A stretch of 35,292 nucleotides of DNA. Origin: a bacterium (GTDB lineage Bacteria > Patescibacteriota > Minisyncoccia > Minisyncoccales > CG1-02-41-26). This document shows, piece after piece, positions 2,611 to 35,292 of this stretch; position 1 is the stretch's first letter, and each line of letters starts with the position of its first letter. The translations under genes were made by a program, and so were the position numbers. The notes beneath the pieces are model-generated. The model saw nothing but the letters and a program-made list of their open reading frames with translations. It was not told the DNA's origin and searched no databases. Location: contig JAUSHZ010000004.1 in NCBI GenBank assembly GCA_030648255.1, positions 1 through 35,292 on the forward strand, given 5' to 3'.

Positions 2611-3417
2611 TCAACATACTCTGTCAGGATTCTTTATCTTTGTGCCTACTGGAAAACCCTTAACAAACTTTATAATAATATCCTCATCCTTGCCAGCAAC
2701 CGCTACTTTCTTCCCAGCCTGAGCACATTGAAATGCTGCTTTGAGTTTGGTTTTTATGCCACCAGATCCTCCTGTTGAGTTATGACCATTGTCTAAAAAC
2801 TCTAAACCAGCTTCACAGTCTATTTCCTCATAAATCTCTGCTTTTAAACTTTCCTGCGAATCTTCTTTGTAAATTCCTTTCACACTTGTAATAAACAACA
2901 CCGCATCCGCTTCCACGAGGGTAGCAATCCGCCATGCCAAATTATCATTTTCGCTAATGCCCTCGTCCATCCATCTTATTTCCTCGTCAGAAAGGACATC
3001 ATTTTCATTGATTATAGGAATGACCCCGTTCTCTAAATAACATATAGTGCTATCTTTCGTACTTTTCCGTTCGCCATTGTGCGCAAGGCTGGCATATGTA
3101 ACCCAAATCTGAGCAACCTCTTTTCCATATATCTCAAACGCTCTGCCCCATTCGTTCATTAAATGCCTTGCACCTATCCCTGCGATCTGCTTTTTCTCCA
3201 TGTGTACAGTTTCAAGTCGTAGCTCATCCATCCTTTCCGCACCAGCCCTAATGGCGCCCGAACTTACTATTGCCACCCCTATACCAAACTGTTGTACCGC
3301 TATAATCTGCCTAGCAAAATCATTAAAGATCTTCTGACTTAACCTACCATTTTCACCCGAGAGACTTTCTGTGCCAAATTTTACCACCAATCTAGAGACC
3401 GCTTTTAGTTTACACAT
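2611..3417 (-). CDS. proB: Glutamate 5-kinase (proline biosynthesis)
   Basis: 268 residues, the length of an amino-acid-kinase domain without the C-terminal PUA domain of longer ProB proteins. VVKFGTESLS (11-20) is the phosphate-binding start, SSGAIRAG follows, then QIAGIGARHLM, NENDVLSDEE (substrate region), DNLAWRIA, and the nucleotide-binding end SGGIKTKLKAA near residue 220. It makes gamma-glutamyl phosphate from glutamate and ATP. Normal partners ProA and ProC are absent from the window. The ATG at 3417 is preceded by a strong Shine-Dalgarno (AAGGAGG, 7-nt spacing), unlike most genes here. The long upstream leader is a T-box with a proline specifier, so expression should rise when tRNA-Pro is uncharged. 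The leader and base composition suggest acquisition from a Firmicute-like source; that is inference. Confidence 0.88.
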   Translation of the reverse strand: MCKLKAVSRLVVKFGTESLSGENGRLSQKIFNDFARQIIAVQQFGIGVAIVSSGAIRAGAERMDELRLETVHMEKKQIAGIGARHLMNEWGRAFEIYGKEVAQIWVTYASLAHNGERKSTKDSTICYLENGVIPIINENDVLSDEEIRWMDEGISENDNLAWRIATLVEADAVLFITSVKGIYKEDSQESLKAEIYEEIDCEAGLEFLDNGHNSTGGSGGIKTKLKAAFQCAQAGKKVAVAGKDEDIIIKFVKGFPVGTKIKNPDRVC

Positions 3418-3424
3418 TTCATTG

Positions 3425-3735
3425 CCTCCTTATTTCTAAATAATTCAAAATAAATAAAAACTCTTTCGCTCTTACTTCTTCTTTTTAAAGAACAAATAAG
3501 GACGAAAGAGTTCTTCCGTGGTACCACCTTAATTTGTTTTAGTTTTATCTAAAACCTTAACATCCTGCAAACACAGGATTACTGGAAGATAACGGCCAGT
3601 TGCCGAGCAAAGTTATTAGCCCTGCCATCTGTTAAGAGTAGGTTCAAGAAAAGCATTGACATGGGCTTCCAGCCTAAGGCCCATTTCTCTTTAGTCGTGG
3701 CTTTTATTTACTATTCTCTTGTCATTGATTTTAAT
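3425..3735 (-). promoter_or_regulatory. T-box leader (riboswitch), proline specifier, controlling proB
   Basis: Read on the minus strand. The T-box consensus AAGGTGGTACCACG is at 3517-3530. Stem I runs about 3634-3720, closed by AAGAG/CTCTT, with the AGUA/GAA S-turn. Immediately after GAA comes CCT (3640-3642) followed by A, giving a Pro specifier. The distal stem I has GAC/GUC and AUGGGC/GCCCAU helices with an AG-type bulge. Stem III is ATCCTG/CAGGAT near 3563-3580. The terminator is a 10-bp stem (3503-3512 with 3459-3468) followed by TTTATTTATT. Uncharged tRNA-Pro should stabilise the antiterminator and allow proB transcription. Confidence 0.9.
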
Positions 3736-4196: not shown

Positions 4197-5027
4197 TTAA
4201 AGGTTATATTTTTTTCTGGCGGTTTGGAAGACTTCTAGAAAATTTTTACTAAATGCATCTACGAAACCAGACGAAGCAAATAACGGCCGTAAATCCGCGG
4301 ACAAACCACGAGAAAAGCTCTTATTGCTAGCAACAAAATTTTCTATATCGTCAAAGATTTCTTTTAAAGGCTTCTTTATTTCCTTTTTTTCAAGCATTAT
4401 TGGGTCGGGTATAATCCCCTGCTCCATATACCAGATTAAATCATAAAAGTCCCGGCCCTTAAAATTTATACCCTTACGGCCTAAAATAGCTGGTAGTTTC
4501 GTCGCAAACAAAGTTGGCAGGTCATAATGCTTAGCAACAAAAGTTACGCCATACTTTGATTTTAAAGTTAAGCTTGTTTTGGTGTTATTAAAAAATTCCA
4601 CGGGTAATGGTCTGGCCTCCACTTTTAACCTTAAAACTTCACCCTTATGAGGAGACAAACCAATCTCATAAAGCACTGGCAATTTTAAAAAAATGCGATT
4701 AATTGTGCGCATTTTATTAACCTGAATTTTTTCATAAAGTGCTAAGTCCTTTTTGAAATAATTTTCTAATCCCACGGCTAGCTCTCTTAGATCTATTCTT
4801 TCATCTGCCTCAAAATCAATATCCTCTGACAAACGTGGCAAATCAAAAAGCATCCTCAAGGCGCTCCCTCCATAAAATACCATATCCTTAAACTTGGAGC
4901 CATAAATATAATCTAAAACAAAATAATGCAAATATTCCTTGAGAATATTGCAAATTAAATCATTTTCAAGGCCTTGCTTCTTGCCGTCTTTGACAATATT
5001 TTGCATTTCTAAAATAAAATTATTCAT
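4197..5027 (-). CDS. abiEii: AbiEii-type nucleotidyltransferase toxin
   Basis: 276 residues. The nucleotidyltransferase signature MVFYGGSALRML (about 48-60) followed by RLSEDIDFE (about 64-73) supplies the GGS and DxD metal-binding residues of the DUF1814/AbiEii family. LKVEARP, near 155, probably holds the third acidic residue. In type IV toxin-antitoxin systems AbiEii/MenT proteins modify tRNA acceptor ends with nucleotides and block growth, giving phage resistance. It overlaps the upstream antitoxin-like gene by 8 bp, the usual order antitoxin then toxin. Whether it is toxic in this host is untested. Confidence 0.85.
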   Translation of the reverse strand: MNNFILEMQNIVKDGKKQGLENDLICNILKEYLHYFVLDYIYGSKFKDMVFYGGSALRMLFDLPRLSEDIDFEADERIDLRELAVGLENYFKKDLALYEKIQVNKMRTINRIFLKLPVLYEIGLSPHKGEVLRLKVEARPLPVEFFNNTKTSLTLKSKYGVTFVAKHYDLPTLFATKLPAILGRKGINFKGRDFYDLIWYMEQGIIPDPIMLEKKEIKKPLKEIFDDIENFVASNKSFSRGLSADLRPLFASSGFVDAFSKNFLEVFQTARKKYNL

Positions 5028-5664
5028 TTTGATATTTTTTTAAAAAAAGTTTTTTACTTAATTCTATTAAAACTTTATTCTTTGAAAGTTCGCAAAAATC
5101 TTTAAATTCTTTAGTGTCTTTTGTGTTGAACATGTCTAAATTTAATCTTTCTCTGGCTAAAATATCATTGGCTGAAAAACGGGTCTTGCCGTATTTAATA
5201 TAAAGATAATCAAAAAGAGCTTTAGCTAATGTGGCGATATAAACTGGATGGTCAATATAAAAACTGCGGCTATAGCCCGCATATAACCTCGGAGCAATAG
5301 AATGATAAATAAACTCCCGCCAATTATTAACATAACTACGAGTTGCTTTGGTGGTCACAGAAGTAATCGGATAGGTTGCTTCAACCATAACACCCCTACT
5401 CTGTAAAACATATACCCCAGAAATATAAGAAGGACGGCGAAGTGAATTGGCTAAAAAGGCGACAAAAGCAGGCTCGCTGATATGCTTATCTTTGTAATGT
5501 TCTGTCACGAAAAATCCTTTTTTTAGTTTAATAACCTCTCCTTTTTTAAGCCAGCGAGTAATTTTACGATAAACTGATTCTTTTTTTAGTAATGGCAAAA
5601 AACCTGCCACATCGTGGGTGGTAAAAAATGGAGAAGATGATAATTTTTTAAGTATTTCGTCCAT
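5020..5664 (-). CDS. abiEi: AbiEi-type antitoxin / transcriptional regulator
   Basis: 214 residues. The N-terminus (about 10-55) is a winged-helix domain: FFTTHDVAGFL, then VYRKITRWLKKGEVIKLKKGFFV, the 'wing' typical of AbiEi proteins. The remainder is the conserved AbiEi C-terminal domain, needed for antitoxin activity in characterised systems. AbiEi proteins repress their own operon by binding inverted repeats in the promoter. Exactly such a repeat lies just upstream (5672-5696). The gene overlaps the toxin gene by 8 bp, so translation is probably coupled. Confidence 0.82.
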   Translation of the reverse strand: MDEILKKLSSSPFFTTHDVAGFLPLLKKESVYRKITRWLKKGEVIKLKKGFFVTEHYKDKHISEPAFVAFLANSLRRPSYISGVYVLQSRGVMVEATYPITSVTTKATRSYVNNWREFIYHSIAPRLYAGYSRSFYIDHPVYIATLAKALFDYLYIKYGKTRFSANDILARERLNLDMFNTKDTKEFKDFCELSKNKVLIELSKKLFLKKYQNE

Positions 5665-31488: not shown

Positions 31489-31896
31489 TTATTTTAGAAT
31501 ACTAAGTTTGTTGTTTAGGTCTTCTAAATTTTCAAACTCAATAATTGAATTTGCCATTTCACGCAAAAACACTGTTTGGATATCTTTTTTTGTAGCCAGA
31601 ATAATCTTTTTGTTTTTAGCTATTGCATAGCCAACTTCCAAAAGCATGCCTTCGCTTTTTTCTTGGCTTTTAATAATAACTAAAACGCAATCTGCTTTGT
31701 CTATCTCTTTTAGGGCGTATTCTAAAATCTGCTTTTTAGTAAAGTTATTTTTTTGGAAATAATCCTCTTTTTGAAAAGAATAAAAGCACTCAAAGCCAGC
31801 CACTTCAATGCTTTGGTAAATCCTTTTCATTACCACTATTAGTCCTTCCCTATCCTCGCCAGTTATCCTATACGATAAAAATATCTTTTTTTTCAT
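31489..31896 (-). CDS. Nucleoside 2-deoxyribosyltransferase-like protein
   Basis: 135 residues. The start KKKIFLSYRITGEDREGL and the segment EKSEGMLLEVGYAIAKNKKIILATKK resemble the NDT/DNPH1 family, where the Glu of 'S.G...E.GyA' is the nucleophile. A distant resemblance to TIR-like or SLOG folds is shared by this class. It may cleave or exchange the glycosidic bond of (deoxy)nucleotides. It overlaps the membrane-protein gene by 4 bp and is followed by the cupin gene. Confidence 0.65.
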   Translation of the reverse strand: MKKKIFLSYRITGEDREGLIVVMKRIYQSIEVAGFECFYSFQKEDYFQKNNFTKKQILEYALKEIDKADCVLVIIKSQEKSEGMLLEVGYAIAKNKKIILATKKDIQTVFLREMANSIIEFENLEDLNNKLSILK

Positions 31897-33250: not shown

Positions 33251-33263
33251 TTATTTCAAAAAT

Positions 33264-33271
33264 GTTATAAT
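33264..33271 (+). promoter_or_regulatory. Extended -10 promoter of tRNA-like RNA copy 1
   Basis: TGTTATAAT spans 33263-33271, with TATAAT at 33266-33271. The TG-N-TATAAT form can work without a -35. The block from TTTTTCATTT through the -10 to the RNA start is nearly identical to that of copy 2. Confidence 0.7.
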
Positions 33272-33282
33272 GGAATTGTGTT

Positions 33283-33350
33283 GGGGGTGGCTTGGTGTAG
33301 GTTCTGGCTTATCATCCAAGGACTTGGGGGTTCGATTCCCCTCACCTCCA
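33283..33350 (+). ncRNA. tRNA-like small RNA, copy 1 (68 nt)
   Basis: The acceptor GGGGGTG (nt 1-7) pairs with CACCTCC (61-67), with G3:U70-type wobble and discriminator A. The T arm is GGGGG-TTCGATT-CCCCT, canonical. The 36 nt between are too few for normal D and anticodon arms. Two folds fit. (a) A 6-bp stem 17-22/38-43, a bulged A37, a 3-bp stem 23-25/34-36, and loop CUUAUCAU. (b) A truncated D hairpin 8-12/16-20 plus a poor anticodon arm. CCA is not encoded. TTTTTT follows 4 nt after the end. Compared with copy 2 the frame is conserved and the interior differs with compensatory changes. Function unknown; G3:U70 suggests it could be charged with alanine (inference). Confidence 0.7.
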
Positions 33351-33370
33351 ATGCTTTTTTAAAACTGCCC

Positions 33371-33399
33371 TTGACAAATGAAAATAAAAATAATATAAT
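33371..33399 (+). promoter_or_regulatory. Perfect consensus promoter of the antisense small RNA
   Basis: TTGACA (33371-33376) and TATAAT (33394-33399) with 17-nt spacing: all 12 consensus bases match. It points away from copy 1 and toward the NUDIX 3' end. Confidence 0.85.
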
Positions 33400-33405
33400 T
33401 GGCTT

Positions 33406-33475
33406 AATTGGATGATAAGCCAGTTTCTTGTACCAGGTTAATTCCTGCAAAACCCGCCGCAAGGCGGTGTTTTTG
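33406..33475 (+). ncRNA. Small RNA with 16-nt antisense to the tRNA-like RNA
   Basis: Predicted start is about 33406, 7 nt after the -10 box. TTGGATGATAAGCCAG (33408-33423) is the exact reverse complement of 33304-33319, which is nt 22-37 of tRNA-like copy 1. A hairpin CAGG-TTAATT-CCTG (33434-33447) follows, then the terminator. It contains no start codon with a plausible frame. Expected length about 70 nt. The antisense stretch is at the extreme 5' end, free of stable internal stems, which favours pairing. Confidence 0.65.
33449..33475. terminator. Intrinsic terminator, usable on both strands
   Basis: CCGCC-GCAA-GGCGG (33454-33467) with flanking AAAAC/GTTTT pairing. TGTTTTTG follows on the plus strand. 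On the minus strand GGGTTTTGC follows, so it can also end the NUDIX gene transcript. Confidence 0.8.
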
Positions 33476-33484
33476 TTTAAAATT

Positions 33485-35042: not shown

Positions 35043-35051
35043 TGTTATAAT
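35043..35051 (+). promoter_or_regulatory. Extended -10 promoter of tRNA-like RNA copy 2
   Basis: TGTTATAAT with TATAAT at 35046-35051, identical in sequence and distance to the RNA start as in copy 1. Predicted leader about 5 nt. Confidence 0.7.
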
Positions 35052-35062
35052 GGAATTGTGTT

Positions 35063-35130
35063 GGGGGTGGCTTGGCGCAAGCCCCAGGTTGCCACTTGAG
35101 GGCTTGGGGGTTCGATTCCCCCTACCTCCA
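35063..35130 (+). ncRNA. tRNA-like small RNA, copy 2 (68 nt)
   Basis: The first 13 nt match copy 1 exactly. The acceptor is GGGGGTG/TACCTCC with discriminator A, again with the third pair G:U. The T arm is GGGGG-TTCGATT-CCCCC. Interior stem 17-22/38-43 is AAGCCC/GGGCTT; relative to copy 1, pair 20-40 changes from U-A to C-G. Upper stem pairs 23-36 and 24-35 also change compensatorily. The loop is GUUGCCAC. An alternative 6-bp hairpin GGCUUG/CAAGCC (nt 7-12/16-21) competes. No complementary small RNA follows within the window. Confidence 0.7.
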
Positions 35131-35181
35131 GCATATTTATTTTATCCACAAAAAAGTGTTTTAGATACAAACATTTTGCAC

Positions 35182-35292
35182 TCAGAATAATCTAAGAGCT
35201 TGATTTGGCGTTTTACCATTTAAACTACAATGTTTGGTGTCGTTGTAATACATATTCCATAATCTTATCTTGTATTTTAAATCTTCAAAAGA
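35182..35292 (-). pseudogene. C-terminal fragment of an IS3/IS481-like transposase (cut by window edge)
   Basis: Minus-strand frame open at the right edge, 36 residues then TGA. It reads LWNMYYNDTKHCSLNGKTPNQAL, split here as WNMYYND and SLNGKTPNQAL. This is the C-terminal integrase-core signature (YN..R.H..LNGKTP.E.L) of IS3/IS481-type transposases. The rest is outside the window, so it may be complete in the genome. The 51-bp gap to tRNA-like copy 2 should contain the IS end, but I could not identify the terminal repeat. Confidence 0.78.

Follow-up and report, generated by a model that had tools for sequence, protein, structure and literature searches.

Several described RNAs and RNA pairs come close to the system reported here. 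tmRNA (ssrA, RF00023) has in common with it a G3·U70 pair, A73, a T-arm, a stemless D-loop, and a long helix in the place of the anticodon arm, and two-piece tmRNAs occur in other lineages. tRNA-Ala and minihelices share with it the T-loop, the elbow, and the major AlaRS identity elements, G3·U70 and A73, which together form the AlaRS identity set. Type I and type VIII toxin-antitoxin systems and CreTA likewise comprise two small RNAs with a strong antisense promoter, a sporadic and multicopy distribution, and cognate-specific pairing, and in RNAI/RNAII and hok/sok loop-loop complementarity also leads to an extended duplex. The tRNA-like RNA described here (TLS), however, is 68 nt long versus about 370 nt for tmRNA, lacks the mRNA-like domain and the pseudoknots, has a dedicated antisense RNA (sRNA), and coexists with a full tmRNA in its genome. 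Unlike tRNA-Ala, it has neither a D-stem nor an anticodon stem-loop of 5 bp and 7 nt, a quarter of its members have an A18-G55 elbow, and its acceptor is extended in the predicted primary transcript. Where those toxin-antitoxin systems have a toxin mRNA or an anti-tRNA RNA, the antisense RNA here is partnered by a tRNA-like acceptor of alanine type, and the partner gene is, unlike in RNAI/RNAII and hok/sok, separate, nonoverlapping, and found in four relative orders. We could not match this two-RNA system to anything described; no description was found in open-access papers, which does not prove absence from the literature.

The window analyzed is one whole contig (35,292 nt) of an 847-kb genome. 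It carries two TLS copies on the plus strand, copy 1 at 33283-33350 and copy 2 at 35063-35130; nucleotide n of the RNA lies at window position 33282+n in copy 1 and at 35062+n in copy 2. Both copies have a 7-bp acceptor stem, a 9-nt stemless D-loop, a long arm, a canonical T-loop, and A73, with no encoded CCA. In copy 1, the acceptor (33283-33289/33343-33349) includes G3·U70 at 33285/33347 and is followed by the discriminator A at 33350; the D-loop (GCUUGGUGU, 33290-33298) holds GG at 33294-33295, corresponding to positions 18-19, and the T-arm occupies 33326-33342. Between them lies the arm (33299-33325), with its stem at 33299-33304/33320-33325 and its loop at 33305-33319; the arm stem of copy 2 is at 35079-35084/35100-35105 and its loop at 35085-35099. 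Measured against a cloverleaf, the D-stem and anticodon arm are absent and the T-loop/D-loop elbow (18-55) is present. ARAGORN called neither window TLS as a tRNA.

A covariance model seeded on three copies and rebuilt from 25 was used to search Patescibacteria, in genomes of the order and in samples of the class and phylum. With hits counted from roughly 49 bits upward, the order yielded about 20 TLS-bearing genomes (of 246), the class sample about 34 (of 383), and the phylum sample about 21 (of 379). The boundary between TLS and tRNA was chosen by inspection: hits below about 46 bits and 70 to 74 nt long were put aside as ordinary tRNAs, and a sample of these were tRNAs by ARAGORN. The distribution is sporadic, with several copies in some genomes, and TLS-bearing relatives are named Parcubacteria, Yanofskybacteria, Nealsonbacteria, and Sungiibacteriota. 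In BLAST searches of phage and plasmid records, all matches were short and at chance level, and a strict pattern search of IMG/VR found no match.

An earlier sequence-only reading had proposed, from the two window copies, that base changes at 33299-33325 support a non-cloverleaf arm. Its coordinates and base changes were correct on rechecking in both copies: nucleotides 17-43, 18-42, 19-41, 20-40 (U-A versus C-G), 21-39, and 22-38 pair, and above them A37 is bulged and 23-36 (U-A versus C-G) and 24-35 (G-C versus A-U) pair. The case from two copies alone is weak, and the larger alignment called for by that reading bears it out. All six pairs of stem 17-22/38-43 changed on both sides, first among 22 homologues and then among 68, with 88.7% of arm-stem cells paired. 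Across the whole TLS structure, 96% of cells in these 68 sequences are paired (73.5% in shuffles), both sides change in 17 of 18 pairs, and covariation scores 0.654 (0.212 in shuffles and at most 0.125 in slid controls). Thus, the arm is real, and the TLS fold is well supported at the level of sequence. The upper pairs and the A37 bulge hold in both copies but are weaker in homologues: of the 44 members that are 68 nt long, 37 have 24-35 and 38 have 25-34, but only 24 have 23-36, which is often swapped for 23-37. A competing D-like hairpin, 8-12/16-20, had also been claimed to be conserved; it fits both window copies, yet all five of its pairs form in only 3 of the 44 members, and it was rejected as a switch partner.

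The acceptor end is nearly invariant where alanine identity resides. G3·U70 is kept at 93 of 94 loci, a count open to some retrieval bias because the covariance model was seeded with this pair, and A73 is present at 92 of 94; acceptor pairs 4 to 7 are free to vary. The elbow covaries without exception: GG in the D-loop accompanies UUC or UCC in the T-loop at 70 loci, and AG accompanies UGC at 24 (0/94 exceptions). A regular expression had misbinned eight loci because of a second GG nearby; by hand, AG stood at the elbow position in each, which gave 94/94. This D-loop/T-loop coupling is, in sequence terms, tertiary covariation of positions 18 and 55, and it indicates a tRNA elbow. In copy 1, the 5-nt leader GUGUU (33278-33282, plus strand) is predicted to begin the transcript, exactly at -5, and to pair with 33350-33354, extending the acceptor helix to 12 bp. 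Of 82 loci of gene orders A, B, and D (defined below), 45 can form all five extension pairs (-1 to -5 with 68-72) and a further 10 can form four; the pairs are of many different types, and U-1/A73 occurs at 77 loci. Charging would need 5' and 3' trimming, because the extended helix of the predicted primary transcript ties up A73 in a pair with U-1. At type C loci, the leader GUGGAG is instead complementary, by eye, to a 3' end CUCCAC. Alanine identity is not universal, since one TLS with a partner lacks both G3·U70 and A73: locus L167 (2384-2450, minus strand), with a partner-like sRNA, has an acceptor GCCGGTG/CACCGGC and U73 and looks to be of glycine identity instead.

With these elements, TLS appears to be an acceptor of the AlaRS type, similar to the tRNA-like domain of tmRNA, and a split tmRNA-like particle, with TLS as the alanine-accepting piece and the sRNA as the second piece, was considered. 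Beyond the tmRNA-like G3·U70, A73, and stemless D-loop, the likeness extends to the covariance models: no Rfam 15 family matched TLS at threshold, and the nearest was tmRNA, with both model ends matched weakly (20.4 bits, E = 1e-6, versus a gathering cutoff of 47) and only the short arm between them. However, a tmRNA-model match was found in 15 of 15 genomes tested, full length and above the cutoff in 14, with SmpB in 14. The window's own genome has a separate full-length tmRNA beside smpB (contig C13, 36615-36983), and a missing or split ssrA was discarded given the full tmRNA and SmpB. The sRNAs also have no common reading frame by eye, and pairing would mask elbow nucleotides that TLS itself needs. 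We consider a split tmRNA improbable. An sRNA-encoded short peptide was likewise rejected; the frames inspected by eye in copy 1 (MISQFLVPG) and in two other genomes, G002 (MAIQDMLRVR...) and G023 (MGDNPDFVSS), share nothing.

The second RNA was found through the arm loop. In copy 1, segment 33304-33319 has an exact 16-nt complement (16 bp, helix 1) at 33408-33423, at the start of a second predicted transcription unit on the plus strand. This predicted sRNA (33406-33476, about 70 nt) is preceded by a predicted promoter matching consensus at 12 of 12 positions (TTGACA-17-TATAAT, 33371-33399) and ends in a terminator (stem 33454-33467 plus U-tract); its nucleotides 33429-33439 would pair with the D-loop at 33289-33299. 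A congener has a different loop sequence and, correspondingly, a different downstream complement. At all 13 of the first type A loci, a promoter lies 12 to 32 nt past TLS, and average duplex energies at these loci were -42.6 kcal/mol for matched and -23.9 kcal/mol for mismatched pairs. The best complement of the arm loop is adjacent sequence at 91 of 97 candidate loci; L139 and L165 are among those without a recognizable partner. When 29 loci of a phylum-wide set were fetched after the analysis was fixed, 27 had a partner, and one of the two partnerless loci looks like an ordinary tRNA-Ala. It is most improbable that these are degenerate or pseudo-tRNA genes persisting by chance: escape from ARAGORN and sporadic occurrence would fit, but not the 68 sequences with near-complete pairing and extensive compensatory change, nor a covarying partner RNA at nearly every locus. 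At L087 (about 4993-5072), a TLS-like sequence has its 5' half replaced by sRNA-like sequence and may be a recombination remnant.

The partner lies downstream on the same strand (type A, about 61 loci), upstream on the opposite strand (B, 7), upstream on the same strand (C, 11), or downstream on the opposite strand (D, 12); these counts are approximate, and L146 was scored B though a better-promoted type A candidate exists. RNA complementarity is the sole constant across these orders; thus, the element acts as RNA, and for B and D at least it acts in trans. The four orders also disfavor a DNA-level inverted repeat, i.e., a recombination, attachment, or transposon site whose tRNA look is incidental. 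The type A complement of 16 bp is indeed an inverted repeat with about 90 bp between its halves, and an insertion sequence adjoins copy 2, but orders B and D make a direct repeat in which RNA complementarity is still kept, the RNA stems covary, and a promoter, a complement where the transcript is predicted to start, and a terminator recur. Nor is there a conserved protein neighbor: the first 22 loci share no neighboring gene beyond a few recurring housekeeping genes, and a protein-associated module was set aside on the same grounds. We judge the DNA-level reading very unlikely.

No partner sRNA lies beside copy 2 in the window. A partner was predicted and then turned up on a different contig: when the genome was searched for the copy 2 complement, a single exact match lay outside the window, 15 nt long, at positions 182-196 of contig C8, 182 bp from its edge, with promoter and terminator. 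In the window, copy 2 is followed by what appears by eye to be the C-terminal end of an insertion-sequence transposase (35182-35292, minus strand; open frame ...NMYYNDTKHCSLNGKTPNQALRLF), which runs off the contig and would separate copy 2 from its partner.

Pairing is specific to each locus. In permutation tests on 37 type A and B pairs, complementarity of the loop, the D-loop, and the 3' stem strand was locus specific (each P ≤ 5e-5), and that of the acceptor/T-arm control was not (P = 0.40). Copies within the same genome (20 genomes) are insulated, with energies of -27.9 kcal/mol for own versus -12.6 kcal/mol for cross-pairing; one genome (G735) is a strong exception to weak cross-pairing. 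Pairing between sRNA and TLS is thus well supported as a sequence relationship. The sequence-only reading had further suggested that two conserved, mutually exclusive folds form a switch; selection for exclusive pairings stands, with the difference that the alternative partner is the intermolecular sRNA and not hairpin 8-12/16-20.

The roles might conceivably be reversed, with the sRNA as a trans-acting effector on mRNAs and TLS as a sponge, a stable tRNA-like decoy showing the complement of the sRNA 5' seed. The stronger promoter belongs to the sRNA and the seed is its 5' end, and partial conservation of the loop motif UUnnCA makes a shared target conceivable. Against this, the complement goes beyond the needs of a sponge by also taking in the D-loop and some of the arm stem, pairing leaves the sRNA without another conserved region, and a sponge has no need of near-invariant G3·U70 and A73 or of elbow covariation. 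We regard a sponge as unlikely.

On the simplest reading, the sRNA antagonizes a tRNA mimic that accepts alanine. Sequence statistics show that TLS folds as described, that its elbow covaries, that pairing is specific and independent of gene order, and that copies in the same genome are insulated; on this basis, we consider an antisense-controlled, alanine-accepting tRNA-like RNA, possibly toxin-antitoxin-like, to be on balance probable. In the proposed mechanism, both RNAs would be transcribed, and TLS would be trimmed, given CCA, and alanylated on the strength of its AlaRS-charging identity elements. Its stemless D-loop would dock on the T-loop to give a tRNA elbow, with the long arm replacing the anticodon arm. 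The strongly promoted sRNA would pair through its entire preterminator body with the arm loop, the D-loop, and part of the arm stem, so that TLS would lose elbow and arm and keep acceptor and T-arm. Because this pairing would remove elbow and arm, TLS would be switched off as a tRNA mimic, and since these are the parts that the sRNA pairs with, the free and bound states would be mutually exclusive. Bound TLS should lack the elbow, a feature with independently conserved covariation.

Free Ala-TLS, we infer, would act on AlaRS, EF-Tu, or the ribosome. Candidate actions are toxin-antitoxin or defense, titration of AlaRS or EF-Tu, and tmRNA-like action. A toxin-antitoxin function would best fit sporadic, multicopy, insulated pairs with a strongly promoted antisense RNA, although the sporadic and multicopy pattern is also compatible with other accessory regulators. 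The likeness to type VIII lies in two RNAs with complementary sequence (pairing only) and in the insulation of copies. The likeliest biological role is a toxin-antitoxin-like or growth-state control module, to which we give somewhat less than an even chance. Slightly more tentative is a new RNA-only toxin-antitoxin or defense class, in which the alanylated TLS would poison or divert translation and be checked by its cognate antisense RNA, whose promoter often has a DnaA box.

The promoters differ between the two RNAs. Copies 1 and 2 of TLS have a predicted extended -10 element (TGTTATAAT; 33263-33271, with a poor -35, and 35043-35051, both plus strand), and TGnTAnnnT lies upstream of 45 of 68 TLSs. 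The sRNA promoters are near consensus; a regular expression found one of the expected form before the complement at 46 of the first 68 loci, looser promoters being unscored. At 16 of these 46, TATCCACA lies 6 to 18 nt (mostly 7 to 10) upstream of the sRNA -35 element, compared with 0.34% of 45-nt windows taken at random. An earlier set of 28 strong promoters included eight with this box, all of them at TLS loci. TTATCCACA is a DnaA box and TATCCACA its core, which suggests a link to replication and possibly replication-linked control of the sRNA. The core is just upstream of the sRNA -35 in L065, L066, L069, L073, L079, L081, and others and is absent at window copy 1; near copy 2, TTATCCACA occurs at about 35143-35151.

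If this account is true, a tRNA-like RNA with dedicated antisense control exists across a large, poorly understood phylum. Elbow covariation from G18-U55 to A18-G55 is combined here with RNA-RNA coevolution at about 90 loci, which makes the system directly testable with synthetic RNAs, and it may open up a new way for cells with very small genomes to control translation, alanine charging, or resistance to phages. TLSs of a divergent type lie directly in the 5' leaders of genes that, by eye, are dprA-like (twice) and RNase J-like (once) (L071, L075, and L076, in genomes G228 and G215). Elsewhere in the window, the minus strand carries at 31489-31896, three genes from the TLS locus, a protein that matches nucleoside 2-deoxyribosyltransferase and, weakly, TIR_2 and, at 3495-3734, a T-box leader (98.4 bits, above the Rfam gathering score) upstream of a same-strand open reading frame at 2611-3417.
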